Below are positions 1-9,437 of a DNA stretch of 9,437 nt, in pieces. The DNA lies in the NCBI GenBank assembly GCA_021129445.1, contig JAJOLG010000076.1, positions 4,497 through 13,933 of the forward strand, given 5' to 3'. This stretch comes from Candidatus Altimarinota bacterium (lineage in GTDB: Bacteria > Patescibacteriota > Gracilibacteria > GCA-2401425 > JAJOLG01). The number at the start of each line of letters is the position of its first letter. Position 1 is the first letter of the stretch. The notes beneath the pieces were generated by a model. It was given only the letters and a program-made list of their open reading frames with translations. It was not told the origin of the DNA and made no database searches. The translations under genes were made by a program, and so were the position numbers.

Positions 1-1
1 T

Positions 2-1408
2 TCTGAGTGAGTTGAGGCCTTAAAAGAGGTTTATGAAAATGAGGAATATTCAATTTCTTTAATTTGAGCACATATTAAAACTAAAATTCAGTCGTCTGTT
101 TGAATTTGATGAAATCAAGATTTTGTAAAAAAATTTTTACCACTTGTTTTGAAAAAAGTTGAAAAATGTTTAGATTTTGCTCAAAATAAAATTGAAGATT
201 TTATAATTTTTCTTTCAAAAAAAACTGGGCATAGTTATGAAAAAGTGCAAAAAATGTTTGTTTTAACAGTATTTTTGTGATTTATATTTATTTTAATTAC
301 TTTTATTTCTCTTTCATCGCAATCAGAAAAATTTTCAAAAGATGTTTATGAAAAATATAAAATTGAGGTTTTAAAAATTGAAAAAAATCTTGATGTTGCA
401 GAAAGCAGGGCTTTGATGGGGTCAAATATTGAGGCAAATGCAATTTTGGATAAATCTGAATCTAAATTAGATGTAATTTTGGAAAAATGAATTTTAAGAG
501 AGAAGGCTTTGGAGCTTTTAAATAAAATTTCTAAAATGAGAGATGAAATCAATAAAATTACAAGATTTGATAATTTAGAAACTAAAAAAATGGTTGATTT
601 TTCAGATTTTTTATGAGAATGAGAGGTTTTAAAATGAATGTTTAAAATGAATTGATTTGTTTTTACTTACACAGAAAATAAAATTTTCAAGGTTGCGGTG
701 AATAAAGTTGAAAAAACAATTAATTTTATAGAGTGAGAAAAAATCAGAATTATAAAATCAGCACCTGGTATGTGACTTGCTTTGGTTTTTTCAGAATGAA
801 ATATTCTTTATACTTTCAATTGAAAAACTTTTGCAAAACAAGAATTTGTAAAAAATGAAAAATTGAAAAAATTTAATGATGTTGAAACTTATTCAAGATT
901 TTTTTACTTACTTGATAATTGACAAAACTGAAAAAAATCAACTTGAACATGAGAAGAGTTGGTTTGAAATTGAGGTAAATGACATGTTTGGAAATATTGA
1001 AAAAAACGTAAATGATTTTCATTACCATTTGATTCTTTAAAATGAGAAGATTTAAGTACAGCAATTTGAATTGCAATTGATTGAAGTGTGTACATTTTGC
1101 ATAAAGATTGATTGATTTCTCAATATTATTCAGGAAAATCTGTAAATTTTCAATATAAATGAGTTTCGAGTATAATTAAAGATGCTGAAAAAATTTATAC
1201 AAAACCAAATTTTTCAAAAATTTATTTGCAAGATTTTAAAAATAATAAAATTATTTTAATTCAAAAAACAAAAAGCTGATGAGAATTTTTGAGGCAATAT
1301 ATTTTTGAATGAGAGAAAATTATTGATTTTAAAGTTGATAAAAATGAACAAGAAATGATTATTGAGTGAGAAAAAGCAATTTATAAGATTTCTTTGATGG
1401 GTTGATAA
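2..1408 (+). CDS. Membrane-anchored protein with probable extracytoplasmic propeller-like domain, 5'-truncated
   Basis: The frame is open from the window edge to TAA at 1406-1408, 468 residues if UGA is read as Gly; the true start lies outside the window. I do not recognise a named family. Residues 1-84 are soluble and would be cytoplasmic. One strong transmembrane helix follows at about residues 85-106 (MFVLTVFLGF then FILITF). Residues about 107-195 are a charged helical stalk with a repeating Ala/Asn/Leu-rich helix (VAESRALMG, EANAILDKSESKL). The rest is beta-rich with repeated short blades, such as GIAIDGSVYILHKDGLISQYY and IYLQDFKNNKIILIQK, which resembles a beta-propeller. A helix, stalk and propeller layout is common in uncharacterised CPR proteins, some of which carry a PP2C-like phosphatase domain in front of the helix. 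The visible N-terminal piece is too short to test that. Several UGA codons sit in turns of the propeller-like part, where Gly is expected. A hairpin terminator follows directly. Confidence 0.85.
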
Positions 1409-1422
1409 AATCAATAAAATAC

Positions 1423-1454
1423 AAAAAACAGACTTTAAAAAGTCTGTTTTTTTT
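1423..1454. terminator. Rho-independent, bidirectional terminator between convergent genes
   Basis: An inverted repeat with core CAGACTT / AAGTCTG and loop TAAA is flanked by six A on the left and eight T on the right, so both strands show a stem followed by a U-tract. It starts 14 bases after the stop of the upstream plus-strand gene and ends 15 bases before the stop of the minus-strand ndk. It therefore probably ends transcription from both sides. Confidence 0.85.
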
Positions 1455-1469
1455 AATGTTTAAAATGAA

Positions 1470-1934
1470 TTAACTTAATTCATCTTCTGAGTAAATGTGC
1501 ATGTATTCAGCTTTATCGTAATCGAAGAAATCTTCTGGATTGAAAAACCTTGCAAGTTCGTCTTTTGCATCATCTGTATTTTCAGAAGTGTGAACAACAT
1601 TACATTGGTATCACATTCATAAATCTCATCTAATTGTTCAAGGTGCCGCTTTTCTTGCAGAAGTAATTCAGCACATATTTCTCACAGACTCAACTGCATC
1701 AACTCATTCAAATGCAAGTGCAATTACTGGTGAAGATTGCATAAAACCTGATACTGATGGGAAAAATGGCTTATTAACAATGTGAGAATAATGTTCTCTT
1801 AAAACTGCATCTGATAATTTCATCATTTTCATTGCAACAAGTTTTAATCATTTTTTTTCAAATCTTCAAATAACTTCTCAAATAAGTCATCTTTGAACTG
1901 CATCTGGTTTAATAATTACAAAGGTTTTTTCCAT
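1470..1934 (-). CDS. ndk: Nucleoside diphosphate kinase
   Basis: The gene encodes 154 residues and ends in TAA. The product transfers the gamma phosphate from ATP to nucleoside diphosphates through a phospho-histidine, supplying NTPs and dNTPs in the cytoplasm. The whole family pattern is present: the N-terminal KPDAVQRGLIGE (residues 9-20), HY at 48-49, KPFFP at 55-59, the nucleotide-binding APGTIRGDLG (97-106), and NVVHTSEN (112-119) with catalytic His115. In bacteria this last motif is usually NxxHGSDS, so Thr116, Glu118 and Asn119 are mild departures. The length is slightly above the typical 140-150 residues because of an acidic C-terminal tail (FNPEDFFDYDKAEYMHIYSEDELS region). Gly16, 19, 29, 103 and 106 are UGA codons at family-conserved glycines. 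The ATG at 1934 gives the normal N-terminus (MEKTFVIIKPD), although no Shine-Dalgarno sequence is visible. A candidate promoter lies about 30 bases upstream. The gene appears monocistronic, divergent from the giant gene and convergent with the membrane protein. Confidence 0.97.
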
Positions 1935-1964
1935 AGTTTTTTTGTTAAATGATAATTTTTTTAA

Positions 1965-1993
1965 GATATAAAATATTTTTTTTCTTTATTCAA
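1965..1993 (-). promoter_or_regulatory. Candidate sigma-70-type promoter for ndk
   Basis: Reading the minus strand, TTGAAT (1993-1988) is followed after exactly 17 bases by TATATC (1970-1965), four of six matches to each consensus hexamer. Transcription would start about 25 bases before the ndk ATG. The surrounding DNA is so AT-rich that chance matches are common, so this is a candidate only. Confidence 0.4.
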
Positions 1994-2060
1994 GTGTTTT
2001 TTTAAATTTTTTTTAAAAAAATAAAAATAAAATATTTTTCAAAACTTGCAATTTTTTTTT

Positions 2061-2089
2061 AAGGTGATAAAGTTTTTTTTGTGTAAAAT
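2061..2089 (+). promoter_or_regulatory. Weak candidate promoter for the giant-protein gene
   Basis: TAAAAT at 2084-2089 matches five of six bases of a -10 box and lies 24 bases before the ATG. No good -35 hexamer lies 17 bases upstream; TTGCAA at 2046-2051 is too far away. A promoter is expected here because the upstream gene is divergent, but the exact position is uncertain. Confidence 0.22.
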
Positions 2090-2113
2090 TTGTTGATTAA
2101 AAAATTTTTTTTA

Positions 2114-5100
2114 ATGTTAATAAAAAATTTGATTTTATCGGGATTTGCTGAGAAAAATTTTTTTGATGAGAAAAAAGTTTTTTTTGCGATGGAAAATGGT
2201 GTTTGAGAGGGTAGGGTTGAGGATGTTAAAGAGAATAAAATTAGAGAGAAAACAGATAAGTTAAAATTTTCAGTAAAACATTGACACCCAGAAGAGGAAT
2301 TTAGTTTTTTTTCAAAATCAGAATGAGGGGCAGAAGCTTCTTATTTAACAAGAGAAAAAATTGAAAAACAAGATCTTTTAAAGAATTATATCTTATTTTC
2401 AACATGAAATCTTTATAGTGATGCAATTGAAAAAAAGAAAGATGATGTCAAGAAAGATAATGAAGAAATTGATAAACAAATCGCTGAATTAAGAGGAAAA
2501 CAAAAGGAAGGCGATTTATCTAATGGTCAATTGTTAAACTCATTAATATCAGCATTAGAAGATGAAAAAGAAAGAAATAATAAAATTTTATCTAATGATT
2601 TTGATTTGTTAAGATGAGATTTAGAAAATGATTTTAAAAGAGATGTGGAAAATTTGAGAAGTAATTTTGATAATTTTTTTGAATGAGAAAGAGATAAAAT
2701 TGAATGAAAAATTTCAGAAATTGAAAATTTATCAAGAAGCATTTGATCAGATATTCCCGTATCAATATCTACTAAGATAAATGGATTACATGAAAAATTA
2801 AATAATTTTTCTCAAATTAGAGATAAATTTTTTTGAGAAAATTGAAAAATGAATTTTGATGTTTTTAAAAAAGAAATGAGGAATTTTTGAGCAAATGAAT
2901 ATAATAGAGAATTTGATAAATTAAAAAGAAAATATTCAGATAAATCTGATTATGATATTTGAAACGAGGCTTTTGATAATATTGTAAATAGATTTTTTGA
3001 TGATTATTTTAAATGATTTGATGATATTGATTATTCTAAAATAACAACTGATGTTGTGTTGGATGAGATTGATAAAGAAATCGAATTTTGAAAATTATGA
3101 AAAACCTTTGAAGATTGTCAAAATATGTGCAATGAAATCCCGTGATTTGAATGAAAATGTGATGAAATTTTTGAATCAAAAAATAGTGTTGATTTATCAG
3201 TATTGGATGGTTTATTTTCAGATTCAGAAAAAGAAGAAGTGGGTTATTTTAATAAAGTTAAAGATGAATTAGAAAAAAGTGAAATTTCTAATAAAAATAA
3301 TTTATTTTTAACTTGAAAAATGTTTGTTTTAATGTCAAAATTAAGAGATTTGATATTTCATAAAATGTCAGAAGAGCCAAGTCTTAAAAAATTTATTGAG
3401 ACAAATAATTTAGATTTAAATAATTATGAGGATAGAATAAAATTAAAAGAAAAATTTTTAGAAAAAGTTAAACTGGAATGAATAAAATTAGATTTTAGCA
3501 TTAATTATGATGATGATCAAAAACATATTGAACAATTAGATGTTACTTGATTAAAACATTTAATTTTTTGAGATATTAAAGAAGGTACTGAATGAGATAT
3601 TCAAGAATGTTATGATGCGAATAAGGTTTTTTTTGATAAAAAAAATGCAGATTTTATTTTAGGTGAAAAAACTAATGATTGAAAAGAAATCAAAATGGAA
3701 AGAGATAGAGTTAAAGGGATTTATGAATGAAATAATAAATTTTTAAATTATTTAGATGAATATTTTAAGGGTGAATTTGATAAATTACATGAAATGGAAA
3801 ATGTAATAAAATGAGAAACAGATCCTATAAAAAAAGATTATCATGAAAGACTTTTAAAAGATAAGCTAAATCATTTAAAAAATGATTATTTACAAGAGTT
3901 ATTAAGTGTTAAAAAAACACTTCTTGCTTCAAAAGCAGATGTTATAAACTTGAAAAATGAACATGAGAAATATTTAAAAGAAGAATGACCGCAAGCCGTA
4001 AGTATTGCATCTATTTGGCATATGATGAAAGAAGTTTATGGTGAATGGAAATGAAATAAGGATTTTGGTAGAGAAGTTGAAAGGGATCTTCAAGCATGAG
4101 TTATGGCAAAATCAATTTGACAATGAATGTGATTTACAGATGCATTAAATAAATGAGAAGCATTGTTAAAAAATACAAGTGCAAAAATGAATAAATTTTA
4201 TTGAGAAAATAAAGAAAAATATTCATCATTTGATACAAAATGATTAAAAGATGAATTAAATAATTTTGCAAAAAGAGGGAATGGTGATTTTAATTGAACG
4301 GCACTTTATTGAGTATTAGCAAATATGGTTGATAAATGAATTTTTAATAAGGATAATATAGATTTTTTAATTGCATTACATAGAAAAACATGATTTTTAT
4401 GAGATAAATGAACTAATTACGAAGATTTAAAAGTGGCAGCAATTAATTTTGTGAAGTCAAAATCTGAATTAGATAAAATAAACATTTTAACACCTTTGGT
4501 TTGAGATTTATTTGAAAATAGTGATTTATATTGAGAATGGACTCAGCAGTCAATAAATAATTTTGAAAAAAATTGAGAAAAAGCAACAAGCTATAGAGCT
4601 GCTTTTAAAGATCAGCCTTTTATAGATTATAGAAATGAATATTTAAAGGTGGCAAATGATAATTGATTATTGGAAAGAAACTGATGTATAAAAGACTGAT
4701 TAACTGTTCCACTTGATAATGTTTGACAGATTGATAATTCTATGTATAAAAAACGGTTGAATAATTTTGTATTACAAAAGATTGTAGATTGAAAATTATG
4801 ATTTTATGCACTTCTTGAATGAATTTGAACTTGAATGATTCCAAAGGATTTAGCTGTTTCACATTGATTTGAATGAGGTTTAGCAGATACTTTTTGATGG
4901 CTTGATAAATTTAAAAAAAGTTTAATACCTTATGATAAATTAAGATGAATGTTTGCAAGAATTTCAAAACCAATAAAGGATTGATGAAAACCAATTTTTT
5001 ATACTTATTGAGAAAATTTAAATTTAGACGAAGAAAAAAATAACAGGATTATAAATAAAAGAATTTGACTCTTAATAAAAGAGTTGTCAGATGAAGAACA

Positions 5101-5785
5101 TACTGAGGTTGATAAGTCTTTTAGGACAAATCCAAAAAAAAGTAAATGGTGGATGGAAACTGTGGCATGAAAAGTGTCTTACGATACATTTGAAGCAGAT
5201 GTTATTTGAAAATGAAATAATATTTGAATGAGAAATCCAGATGATCTTTCAGCATTTATAAATTGAATTTGATATGAGCTTGAAACATTTTGAGTAGATG
5301 GTGTTGATGATGAATGAAATTATACTCATAAGAACAATATTACTAATTTAGATAAAAATTTAATCAAGGAGTCTTTTAAATCATTTTTAGCATATAATTC
5401 TTGGTATATTGAAAAAAGTTATAATGATAAATGAAAAGGAGTTAATTCTGCTACAACAACAATTGATGATTTTTTTGATAAAAAACCTGCAAAATATGCT
5501 TGAACTACATTATTATGACAAAAGCCAACCTTAAAAGATCAAGCGAAAACATTTTATAATATTTTTAAGGAAATAGATAAATGATGAATTGTTTGTTCAG
5601 AGTTAGAAAAGAAAACTTGAGAAACAAGAGATAATTATGAAAAAAGGGTTTCAGATTATTTTTGAAGGTGATCTTGAAAATTTGTAAGTGATATGAATGA
5701 TGTATTTTCTTCTATTGATAATAAAGAATTACTAGAAATAATTATTAAAGCAAAAAAAAGTAGTGATTTCCCTCAAAGAGTATAA
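2114..5785 (+). CDS. Giant uncharacterised helix-rich protein (1223 aa)
   Basis: One uninterrupted frame runs from ATG at 2114 to TAA at 5783-5785 when UGA is read as Gly. I count about 77 in-frame UGA codons against about 20 GGN codons. I do not recognise any domain. There is no signal peptide and no convincing transmembrane helix, so it is probably cytoplasmic or exported by an unknown route. Residues about 100-210 are very rich in Lys, Glu, Asp and Asn, with heptad-like spacing (AIEKKKDDVKKDNEEIDKQI), and probably form a coiled coil. The middle part stays charged and helical. A more hydrophobic, conserved-looking segment occurs near residues 630-680 (ASIWHMMKEVYGEW). The C-terminal third (about 750-1200) looks globular, with Trp- and Gly-containing stretches such as GFYALLEGIGTGMIPKDLA near 895 and KWWMETVAGK near 1012. 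The first ATG of the frame is used; no Shine-Dalgarno is seen. The gene stands alone, with divergent ndk upstream and a terminator 20 bases after its stop. A structural, surface-associated or cytoskeletal role is possible, but nothing in the sequence decides it. Confidence 0.9.
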
Positions 5786-5804
5786 TACTAAAAATAAAAC
5801 AATC

Positions 5805-5828
5805 AAAAAAGCCACAAAGTGGCTTTTT
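5805..5828. terminator. Rho-independent, bidirectional terminator between giant gene and aroQ-like gene
   Basis: GCCAC (5811-5815), a three-base AAA loop and GTGGC (5819-5823) form a perfect stem, flanked by six A and five T that extend it and give a U-tract on either strand. It begins 20 bases after the stop of the plus-strand giant gene and ends 4 bases before the stop of the minus-strand chorismate mutase gene. It can end both transcripts. Confidence 0.85.
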
Positions 5829-5831
5829 GTT

Positions 5832-6116
5832 TTACATATTATCCCCCTGAATTTTTTTAGATTCTTCAATAATATTAAAAAAAATTTTTACCAAAACTTT
5901 TGCATCAATTCATTTTTCACTAGCCAGTTTTTTATATTTTTCATAAATTTCAAGCTCCCTTTCCTTGTGTTCAAGCGGTAAATTATTTTCTTTTTTAAAT
6001 TTTCACAAATCTGGCATCAGAGCAAATCTTGCTTCAATTAAATCGATAATATCATTATCAATTTGATTTATCACTTGTCTAAAACTTCAAAGTTGTAAAT
6101 TTCCTTCTCTTTTCAT
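5832..6116 (-). CDS. Chorismate mutase, AroQ class (type II), stand-alone
   Basis: The gene encodes 94 residues and ends in TAA. The family converts chorismate to prephenate, the committed step to Phe and Tyr, as a small all-helical cytoplasmic dimer. The helix pattern is clear: SFRQVINQIDNDIIDLIEAR, then GKFKKENNLP, then HKERELEIYEKY, and a C-terminal IFFNIIEESKKIQ. In my alignment to the E. coli P-protein mutase domain the active-site residues keep their exact spacing: Arg13 (Arg11), Arg30 (Arg28), Lys41 (Lys39), Arg53 (Arg51), Glu54 (Glu52), Ser86 (Ser84) and Gln90 (Gln88). The one visible change is His50 where E. coli has Asp48. Keeping Glu54 and Ser86 argues for a mutase over a PchB-type isochorismate-pyruvate lyase. 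There is no fused prephenate dehydratase, dehydrogenase or DAHP synthase domain. It is the last gene of the minus-strand cluster, 9 bases after the aminopeptidase, and is followed by a terminator. No Shine-Dalgarno is visible; the ATG at 6116 is the first after the upstream stop. Confidence 0.88.
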
Positions 6117-6125
6117 TGCTAAAAA

Positions 6126-7541
6126 TTATTTTTTTAAAAATTCAGTCATCAAAGTTATCATTGTTCAAGTTCAAAATGAATTTGGTAAATCATAATCTTG
6201 TTTTTGAGTTTCTCTAATTCAAGTTCATGCGATGTCGCAATGTACCCATTTTTTTGTATCTTTTACGAAATTTGATAAAAATGCAGCGGCTTCTCATGCT
6301 CACATAAATTTAAATTTTCAAACATTTGATAAATCTGCTTGCTTGTGTTTTACAGCTTCTTTTATTCTTTTATCAAATGGAAGTTGCCGACATAAATCAT
6401 TTGTTTTTCTTCAAAGTTCTTCAATTTTATCTAATAATTTTTTATCATCAGAAAAAATTCAAGTGTACATTTCTCAAAGAGAATGATGGCAAGATCAAGT
6501 TAAAGTTGCAAAATCAAAAATCATTTTTGGCTTAAAAGTATCATCTGCATAAGATAAACAATCTGCCAAAACAAGTCTTCATTCGGCATCAGTATGTCAA
6601 ACATAAACAGTTTTTCAATTTCTCGCAGTTAAAATATCTCAATTTTTATAAGAATTTGCATCAACCATATTTTCTGTAACTCAAATAATTCAAACAACAT
6701 TTTTCTTAATTCATAATTTTTTCAAACTTGCCATAATTCAAATTACAGTCGCAGCTCATCACATATCTCAATTCATTTCATTCATGTGTGGATATCATTT
6801 CATATAATATCATCAAGAATCGTAAGTCAATCATTTTCAAATTAAAACCACCGGCGCCTCTCATTTTTTTCATCAATTATATTCAAATTGAATCATTTTT
6901 GCCCTGTCCTTTGAACCCTGATTTACAGCTAAAAATAATCACATTTTTTCTTTCCCCAAAAAATCTTGTTGATGATATGTTATTTTTAATCAAAATTCTT
7001 TTTTATCGATATTTTTTTTGATGTATTCTTCAAGTGTAACTGGTGTAATTTTATTTGATGGCTTTGATTGAATTTCTCTTGCAATATTTATTGCTTCAAC
7101 TAATTCTCTTAAATTTTTTGTAATTACTCATTTTATTTCAATTGTTCAAGATTTTTTTGCATTTTTTTCTTTTGATTTGTACCAATCATCCTTCATTTCT
7201 GCCATTAAAGCTCATTTTTCAATAAATTTTCTTTCTTCTCTTGAAAAATTTTGTTCAAACATCAAATTTATTTCAATGTCGTCTTCTCATTGAAATCAAA
7301 TTGCTTTTCTGACTCATTTTGCTCACAAATTTTGCAAGTCATTGAAATCATACTCATTTGTTCACAAATGTGTTAAAATTGAATAATTATTTTTTCTGTC
7401 AAAATTTGCAAAAACTCATCAATTTTTTATTTTAAAATCTGAATTTTTTATTCTTGCTTTAAAAAAATTTTCTGAGTTTGCAGAAAATTTTTTTAGCTTT
7501 GGAAATTTTGATTTTGAGAATAAAATTTTTATTTTTTTCAT
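6126..7541 (-). CDS. M17 family leucyl-type aminopeptidase
   Basis: The gene encodes 471 residues and ends in TAA, close to the usual 480-500 of the family. M17 enzymes are cytoplasmic hexamers with two metal ions that remove N-terminal residues, often Leu, from peptides. The catalytic domain is intact: GKGLTYDSGG (residues 235-244), MNGDMCGAAT around 259, HTDAEGRLVLADCLSY (316 onward) and FDFATLTGSC. Aligned to E. coli PepA, metal ligands Lys236, Asp241, Asp259, Asp318 and Glu320, and catalytic Lys248 and Arg322, all fall at the expected spacing. The first Gly of GKG and the Gly in AEGRL are UGA codons, good evidence for the recoding. The N-terminal domain (about 1-150) is Lys/Asn-rich and divergent, as is usual in M17. 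There is no signal peptide. It lies 22 bases after the S41 protease gene and 9 before the chorismate mutase gene, so it is probably co-transcribed with both. It could complete degradation of peptides; substrate preference cannot be read from the sequence. Confidence 0.96.
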
Positions 7542-7563
7542 AATTATTTTTTATTTTTATAAA

Positions 7564-9000
7564 TTATTTTTTTTCTTCGTTTCAAAAAATTTCTTCCTTA
7601 ATTTTTTCAATTTTTTCTTTTTCTTTTTCTTTTTTATCCAAATCTGTCACTAAAATTCATGAAGAATTAAATTTCATAACAGCGCTTCAAGTTAAAAATT
7701 TTTTTTCTTCAAAAAATTGTTTTAAATTTCAATTTTCTAAAATTTCAATAGCTTTATCAAGTTGTGGGTCTTTTTTTGCAACCATATCATCAAAAGTTTT
7801 TCAAATTTTTACATCTGGATTTATTCAAACCTGATGAATATCTTGATCATTTGGAGTAAACCATTTTGCGATTGTTAATTTTAAATTCGATCAATCATCA
7901 AATGGAACAAGTGTTTGAACAGATCATTTTCAAAAAGATTTTTCTCAAACTAAAATTGCTTTTTCGTGATCACGAAGCGCTCAGGAAACGATCTCTGATG
8001 CAGATGCTGAACCTCAATTTATTAAAACAGCCATTGGTAAATTTGGAAATCATTTTCAAAATGGAATTGATCTGAGTTCTTTATTTCATTCCTTTGACTT
8101 GATTGTTGTGATTAATGCTCATTTTTCTAAAAATGGTGATGCGATCCAAACTGCTCAATCTAAATAGCCTCAACCATTAAATCTTAAATCTAAAATTAAA
8201 TATTTTACATCATCTTTTTCAGCTTGTTGCAGTCAAGTGTAGAATTCCTCAATAGTTTTATCTCAAAATTGATTTATTGAAATATATCAAACATTTTCTC
8301 ATTTTGGAGATTTTTTTAATTCATATTTTACTGAGTTTATGTGGATTGTGTCGCGAATTATTTTGATATCAATTTCTTTTCAAAATTTTTCCTCTTCATT
8401 TTTTCTAAAAACCGTTAAAACAACTTCTGTTCACTTTGGACCTCTTATTTTTTTTACAACATCTGATAAATTTTGCCCTAAAATATCTTCTCAATCAACT
8501 TTCAAAATAATATCTTTTGGCATTAGTCAGGCTTTTATTGCAGGAGATCATTTTAAAGGAGAGGTGATTATTATCATTCAGTCTTTTGTTTGCAATTCTG
8601 CTCAAATTCATTCGAAGTTTCATGCCATTTCTTCTTTAAAATCTTCTGTTTGTTTTGCTGGCATATAGCTTGAAAATGGGTCTCAAAGTGTTGCAACAAC
8701 TCATTTTAAAATATTATCTTCAAGTTTTTTATTATCATTTAATTTTTCAGATTCGTATCATTTTTTTTCAATAATATTCAGGATTTTATTGATTTTTTCT
8801 AAATTTATTTTTTGTTTTTCTTCAATTTCTTTTTTATCTTCATTTTCTGGTAAAAAATTTTTATCTTCGAGAAAATAATTAAAACACAAATAATGAGTTT
8901 TGCATAAATTTTCTAAACTTGAAAAATTTTTCAAAGCAAAAATATTTCACGAAATAAAAAAAATCGCAATTACAATTGAAATTGTAAGTTTGTTTTTCAT
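7564..9000 (-). CDS. S41 family C-terminal processing protease with PDZ domain, exported
   Basis: The gene encodes 478 residues and ends in TAA. CtpA/CtpB/Prc-type proteases use a Ser-Lys dyad to cut envelope or periplasmic proteins near their C-termini. Residues 1-22 look like a signal peptide (MKNKLTISIVIAIFFIS, then GNIFA), with a likely cut after Ala22 or retention as an anchor. A helical region with Lys/Glu repeats follows, then DPFSSYMP near 110, typical of the family just before the PDZ domain. The PDZ domain (about 125-210) has GIGAEL and SPAIKAGLMPKDIILKVDG. The protease core holds YLILDLRFNGGG, GGSASASEIVSGALRDH (329 onward) and GEKSFGKGSVQ (352-362). By alignment to Prc and CtpB, catalytic Ser333 and Lys358 are 25 residues apart as expected, with Gln362 the third conserved residue. 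A Lys/Glu-rich tail (DLDKKEKEKEKIEKIKEEIF) ends the protein. It sits 8 bases after the small basic gene and 22 before the M17 gene. Many conserved glycines are UGA codons. Confidence 0.96.
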
Positions 9001-9008
9001 AAAATTTT

Positions 9009-9368
9009 TTATTTATTTTGGTTTAATCAATGCAAATGTCAAAAAAATTTGAAATACAAATCTTTTACATCTGCTGGTTTTTTATTTATTAAATCTTTAA
9101 AAAGTCTTGTTTCGTCTCTCATTTTTCAAATATTTTCAATTACAAATTTGTGATTTTTTTTGTTTTTTAAAACTTCCTTGAAAAGTTTTTTCCTTTTATT
9201 TTTAATAAATCTGATGGTTTTTGTTTTCATCAAATTTAAAGATGGAAGTTTTTTTGTTTTCTTTTGTGATTTTTTCTTTTTTTGAACAGGTTTTTTTTCT
9301 GTAATTTCAATATTATTGACAATATTTTTTAAATCATTATTTGCCGATGTTAAGATTTTTTCTGACAT
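9009..9368 (-). CDS. Small Lys-rich hypothetical protein (119 aa), first gene of the protease cluster
   Basis: The frame runs from ATG at 9368 to TAA at 9009-9011, through UGA codons at 9126-9128 and twice near the C-terminus; reading UGA as stop would cut it to 80 residues. I do not recognise the family. It is strongly basic: residues about 25-45 are almost all Lys with a few Gln, Pro and Thr (KKPVQKKKKSQKKTKKLPS). Residues 50-119 look helical and more conserved (IRFIKNKRKKLFKEVL, KMRDETRLFKDLI, KDLYFKFFGHLHG). There is no signal peptide or membrane helix. The charge suggests nucleic-acid, ribosome or acidic-membrane binding, but no diagnostic motif is present. It lies 8 bases upstream of the S41 protease gene, so the two are probably co-transcribed and might be linked in function. 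No Shine-Dalgarno is visible. The other possible starts lie inside the Lys-rich part, so the first ATG is preferred. Confidence 0.72.
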
Positions 9369-9437
9369 TTAAAAATTTTTTTCTTTATAAAAATAAAAAA
9401 ATTTTTTTTTGCAAAATTATTTTTTTTTTTTAAATTT
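9369..9437. other. AT-rich leader upstream of the minus-strand cluster
   Basis: These 69 bases are almost pure A and T tracts. On the minus strand, TTGCAA (9414-9409) followed after 17 bases by TTTATA (9391-9386) is a weak promoter candidate that would place a start site close to the ATG at 9368. Nothing else is recognisable, and the window ends here, so the true upstream neighbour is unknown. Confidence 0.25.

Follow-up and report, generated by a model that had tools for sequence, protein, structure and literature searches.

UGA as the main glycine codon in a genome of the order GCA-2401425, most likely recoded separately from Absconditabacteria and Gracilibacteria

Results

Genes of the window

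The window analysed here is a stretch of 9,437 nucleotides (positions 4497-13933 of contig 16) from the draft genome G000 (672,893 bases, 77 contigs). Our subject is the genetic code in which its genes are written, in particular the reading of UGA as glycine (translation table 25). Gene calls under table 25 gave seven long non-overlapping genes, which together hold 204 in-frame UGA codons (85% of their glycines), 37 GGN codons and 12 UGG codons; the terminator is UAA in all seven. Under the standard code (table 11), the longest frame in the window has 109 aa, and the single frame that lies on a real gene is an 80-residue piece at 9126-9368. The original prediction for this DNA had stated that all seven genes carry in-frame UGA and that a standard-code annotation would miss or fragment everything except an 80-residue piece of the last gene. 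Both statements held when the genes were called again. The genes, with their numbers of in-frame UGA codons, and the CGG codons discussed below are as follows.

2..1408, plus strand: gene 1, its 5' end cut by the window, at least 468 aa, 34 UGA (frame under table 25)
1470..1934, minus strand: nucleoside diphosphate kinase (NDK), 154 aa, 10 UGA (Pfam NDK 164.9 bits with UGA as Gly)
2090..5785, plus strand: large protein, 1231 aa, 77 UGA, UAA stop (frame under table 25)
4754..4756, plus strand: CGG codon inside the 1231-aa gene, predicted Trp, with no homologue for comparison
5832..6116, minus strand: chorismate mutase (AroQ type), 94 aa, 3 UGA (Pfam CM_2 72.9 bits)
6126..7541, minus strand: M17 leucyl aminopeptidase, 471 aa, 42 UGA (Pfam M17 346.3 bits with UGA as Gly)
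6387..6389, minus strand: CGG, codon 385 of the M17 aminopeptidase (opposite Trp in 12 of the 13 homologues that use the standard code)
7564..9000, minus strand: S41/PDZ C-terminal processing peptidase, 478 aa, 35 UGA (Pfam S41 172.9 bits with UGA as Gly; TIGR00225 348.5 bits)
9009..9368, minus strand: small lysine-rich protein, 119 aa, 3 UGA, with the 80-aa piece under the standard code (frame under table 25)

Four of the seven genes belong to known families. For the 1231-aa and at least 468-aa proteins, searches of Pfam and PHROG gave no match, and those of NCBIfam none that was confident. The possibility that the window derives from a phage or mobile element was considered and rejected, as a PHROG search of the three unassigned genes gave no match.

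UGA is read as glycine

In the recognisable enzymes of the window, the glycines of conserved motifs are all encoded by UGA: 3/3 in GTIRGDLG of NDK, 4/4 in GKGLTYDSGG and 1/1 in HTDAEGRL of M17, and 1/1 in SEIVSGAL and 2/2 in SFGKGSVQ of S41. This is what had been predicted for these motifs. All three families score best when UGA is read as glycine. The M17 match falls from 346.3 bits to 290 with Ala, 281 with Cys, 273 with Arg and 245.5 with Trp; S41 falls from 172.9 to 121.8 with Trp, and NDK from 164.9 to 139 with Cys and 133.9 with Trp. Since the alternative readings (Ala, Cys, Arg or Trp) lose 25 to 100 bits, the placement of UGA at glycines is not due to chance.

The same usage extends over the genome. 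The ribosomal-protein operon of G000 contains 233 UGA and 17 GGN codons, so that UGA accounts for 93% of its glycines (233/250). With conserved columns defined from 28 standard-code genomes, the 232 UGA sites of the ribosomal proteins coincide with Gly in 149 of the 156 columns conserved to at least 80%, and in all 90 invariant columns. In alignments of fetched genes, UGA stands opposite Gly at 1058 of 1488 sites (71%), compared with 182 of 258 (71%) for GGN. Over 265 kb, the fraction covered by frames of at least 100 aa rises from 0.20 with table 11 to 0.895 with table 25, UGA makes up 4598 of 5446 Gly codons (84%), and genes end at UAA (150) or UAG (22), with frame length as the sole criterion by which UGA was excluded as a gene end. 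UGA is the main glycine codon genome-wide and is no longer a terminator; the stops are UAA and UAG. Because UGA falls in columns that are Gly in standard-code relatives, the sequence comparisons place its reading as glycine in this genome beyond reasonable doubt.

That UGA stands for selenocysteine, or for Trp or Cys (a code of the table 4 type), might be expected from the fact that UGA to Trp is the commonest bacterial reassignment, but is practically excluded by the Pfam losses, by the presence of UGG itself in the Trp columns, and by the alignments, in which one UGA site of 1488 aligns mainly with Trp and two with Cys; the claim that Trp is still encoded by UGG, and the code not of the Mycoplasma type, therefore stands. 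That the stop-rich genes are pseudogenes or products of sequencing errors would account for frames broken up under the standard code and is just as improbable, given that UGA alone interrupts the frames, with no UAA or UAG among the interruptions, that active-site motifs are preserved and that the pattern is uniform over 265 kb.

CGG is likely a second tryptophan codon

Table 25 had been proposed to apply throughout. The proposal is right for UGA; the other codons are not all standard, as CGG aligns with Trp. The M17 gene has a single CGG, and 12 of the 13 standard-code homologues carry Trp in that column. Among nine CGG sites with good local alignment in the fetched genes, four align with Trp, four with an aromatic residue or His, and none with Arg. 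Other Arg codons align with Trp at 2 of 811 sites, against 4 of 9 for CGG (Fisher p = 1e-7). The CGA sites are split, two aligning with Arg and two with Glu. A tRNA(CCG) on contig 5 (L179:3026-3102) has A1:U72 and G73, features used for Trp acceptors (PMC8629427). CGG is therefore likely a second tryptophan codon in G000, and this tRNA, with some tryptophan features, would be its reader.

G000 also has two tRNAs with a CCA anticodon though UGG is rare (L181:1944-2019 on contig 8 and L123:12830-12904 on contig 4). One is Trp-like (G73); the other, with C1:G72, A73 and G37, is unfit for Trp.

The closest relative keeps the standard code

In the grouping of the search tool, one other genome shares the order of G000: G192, which is NORP126, a 'Candidatus Peregrinibacteria' metagenome-assembled genome (MAG; NVTB01000004.1). 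The code of NORP126 is the standard one. Under table 11, 91% of the genome lies in long frames, there is no UGA in 1410 ribosomal-protein codons, and CGG lies in Arg columns. UGA ends 56 of its 513 long open reading frames (ORFs), and the next stop follows after a median of 11 codons. Release factors 1 and 2 (RF1 and RF2) are both present, each with its own motifs.

A tree was built from 20 ribosomal proteins, of which NORP126 supplies 11. G000 and NORP126 group together with 100% bootstrap and 95-100 approximate likelihood ratio test (aLRT) support, and they do so under LG+R4, LG+G4 and C20. The known recoded families f100-f103 form one clade apart from this pair. A tree constrained to hold G000 in the recoded clade is worse by 70 log-likelihood units (lnL) with the ribosomal proteins (approximately unbiased test, p-AU 0.00125) and by 60 lnL with 16S (p-AU 0.0043), tree tests being, like E-values, model-dependent. 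The 16S test is free of codon effects, as 16S does not depend on the genetic code; the G000 16S is 85% identical to that of NORP126. By both tests, G000 is not a member of JAEDAM01 (Absconditabacteria and Gracilibacteria). These comparisons assign it to the GTDB order GCA-2401425 (order name taken from PMC9793634), on the 'Peregrinibacteria' side, together with NORP126. The original prediction had named Gracilibacteria and Absconditabacteria as the known table-25 hosts; this organism lies outside both. Contamination or a mixed bin was rejected as an explanation: recoding is seen in each of the contigs with the ribosomal proteins (C4), the 16S (C19) and the window (C16), and in the trees C4 and C19 fall beside NORP126.

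Sparse UGA glycines in a third genome

Another family of the same class as G000 is represented by the genome G335. Its ribosomal proteins contain no UGA. Contig 1 encodes a tRNA with anticodon UCA (L257:4485-4561) that has G1:C72, C2:G71, G3:C70, U73 and a short variable loop, and which by its sequence carries complete glycine identity elements. About 3% of the glycines in G335 are UGA, and UGA occurs at conserved Gly positions in several genes, for example in a KefC-like exchanger and in DSNGDG-type motifs. Beyond a UGA end, the frames of G335 stay open for a further 140 codons (median), compared with 11 in NORP126. We judged G335 on aligned sites and stop spacing rather than on frame length because GC-rich standard genomes show joined UGA frames by chance. 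One of its genes may still end at UGA, and there are three release-factor-domain matches, of which the one read is RF1. G335 and G000 share a region of the ribosomal-protein tree in some analyses; grouping the two is mildly rejected (p-AU 0.039). It possibly represents an early stage of UGA reassignment.

Discussion

Our analysis leads us to conclude, with good though not complete confidence, that the capture of UGA as the main glycine codon is complete in G000, that CGG very probably encodes Trp there, and that the UGA change is separate from that of the JAEDAM01 clade. Because its closest relative NORP126 keeps the standard code, and because the tests reject joining G000 to the known recoded clade, UGA as glycine most likely arose in the G000 lineage separately from Absconditabacteria and Gracilibacteria.

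Several points weigh against this conclusion. The deeper position of G000 and NORP126 is poorly resolved in both trees. G335 also reads UGA as Gly, and the AU test against grouping it with G000 gives a p value of only 0.039; a single origin outside JAEDAM01 followed by reversion in NORP126 is possible. The assignment of CGG comes from nine sites, and tRNA(CCG) apparently has A20, an arginine feature, in a sequence read by eye. A tRNA-Gly(UCA) was not found in the incomplete draft of G000 with the Rfam tRNA model, ARAGORN on 265 kb or pattern searches (two matches to a UCA-tRNA pattern, neither tRNA-like), and neither RF1 (prfA) nor RF2 (prfB) was found in it. The one tRNA-Gly found has the anticodon UCC. 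The draft also yielded no tRNA-Met, tRNA-Glu or tRNA-Arg(UCU), though these are needed, and RF1 must exist since UAA and UAG serve as stops. Because RF1, tRNA-Met and tRNA-Glu are missing too, we regard the absence of tRNA-Gly(UCA) and RF2 as missing data rather than counter-evidence. One candidate UCA tRNA on contig 13 (L183:2043-2150, minus strand; ~105 nt, just 3' of tRNA-Ile) was rejected, as it lacks a usable anticodon loop. This tRNA-like element has a good T-arm and a CCA end, and was missed by both ARAGORN and the Rfam tRNA model.

By analogy with SR1, UGA in G000 is most likely read by a tRNA-Gly(UCA) charged by glycyl-tRNA synthetase, with RF2 gone. Strong AT pressure (25% GC) may have eliminated UGA as a terminator; a tRNA-Gly(UCA) would then have appeared and RF2 become dispensable, after which the A/T-rich UGA could have replaced GGN codons. 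A late stage of codon capture would agree with the very low GC content and with the takeover of nearly all GGN codons by UGA.

The number of origins outside JAEDAM01 can be viewed in two ways, and one origin or two are both compatible with the data. We tentatively suggest, while giving it less than an even chance, that outside JAEDAM01 there were at least two further changes of UGA to Gly, one in G000, with convergent CGG to Trp, and one in G335. The latter would be a living intermediate with both tRNA-Gly(UCA) and RF2, ~3% UGA glycines and essentially none in ribosomal proteins. Somewhat less likely still is a single origin in an ancestor of G335, G000 and NORP126, perhaps ambiguous (with RF2 and tRNA-Gly(UCA) together); the change would then have gone to completion in G000, stayed at low use in G335 and disappeared from NORP126. 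The UCA tRNA with glycine identity, the UGA codons at conserved Gly, the three release-factor-domain matches and the proximity of G335 to G000 in some ribosomal-protein analyses would all agree with such an ancestor. However, the AU test disfavours G335 and G000 as sisters, standard-code lineages may fall between them, and losing a sense reassignment is less likely than gaining one.

It is considerably harder to see G000 as an ordinary member of the JAEDAM01 clade, with its placement beside NORP126 a tree artefact, and we consider this improbable. G000 shares UGA as Gly and CGG as Trp with Absconditabacteria (PMC8629427), its GC is similarly low, and its M17 aminopeptidase, which shares 42% identity with its standard-code counterpart in NORP126, forms one odd branch with NORP126 and G222, a recoded f100 genome on the Absconditabacteria side. 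The shape of that branch suggests gene transfer between lineages, and the M17 tree was not used for species placement. Membership is rejected by both ribosomal proteins and 16S, three models agree on G000 with NORP126, and the grouping of the search tool sets G000 in NORP126's order. Moreover, shared AT-richness should draw G000 to the AT-rich recoded clade, not to the more GC-rich NORP126.

To ask why UGA changes to Gly, not Trp, in small AT-rich bacteria, a repeat of the change is needed, and a separate origin would provide one. With G000 and NORP126, one order holds a pair with opposite codes, and the order of the steps (RF2 loss, tRNA gain, codon takeover) becomes testable. For annotation, table 11 loses nearly all genes of such genomes, table 25 alone would misread CGG, and surveys of ribosomal proteins alone miss low-level use of UGA as Gly.

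The use of code 25 in the order GCA-2401425 is already on record. A methods remark from 2022 states that a hydrothermal vent deposit MAG of this order, 4559-240_metabat1_scaf2bin.085, needs code 25, with a mean ORF of 85 aa under code 11 and 277 aa under code 25 (PMC9793634). The order then held just this MAG and NVTB00000000 (NORP126), and our window very probably comes from the vent MAG or close kin. The main text of that paper does not take up origin, tRNA or release factors, and the paper leaves the recoding of NORP126 open; in the present analysis, NORP126 is shown to be standard-code. What appears to be new here is the placement outside JAEDAM01 with NORP126, CGG at Trp, and the tRNA-Gly(UCA) and sparse UGA glycines of G335, although an earlier report may have been missed, as subscription journals and preprints were thinly covered.

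Table 25 is known in Absconditabacteria/SR1 and Gracilibacteria/BD1-5, the GTDB group JAEDAM01 (Campbell et al., 2013 and Rinke et al., 2013, as cited in PMC8629427 and PMC13293708). A 2026 review restricts UGA-to-Gly to JAEDAM01, with one origin in its ancestor (PMC13293708); our data for G000 argue against such a single, restricted origin. In Absconditabacteria CGA and CGG encode Trp, as does CGG in some Gracilibacteria (Shulgina and Eddy, 2021, PMC8629427). G000 resembles them in that its CGG aligns with Trp and its tRNA(CCG) has G73 and A1:U72; it differs in its lineage, in CGA sites split between Arg and Glu, and in the possible A20. As in the table 25 of JAEDAM01, UGA encodes Gly, UGG encodes Trp, UAA and UAG are the stops and GC is low. 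Unlike these organisms, G000 lies outside their clade, beside a standard-code relative, and UGA makes up 93% of its ribosomal-protein glycines, compared with at most ~67% in the known recoded genomes sampled.

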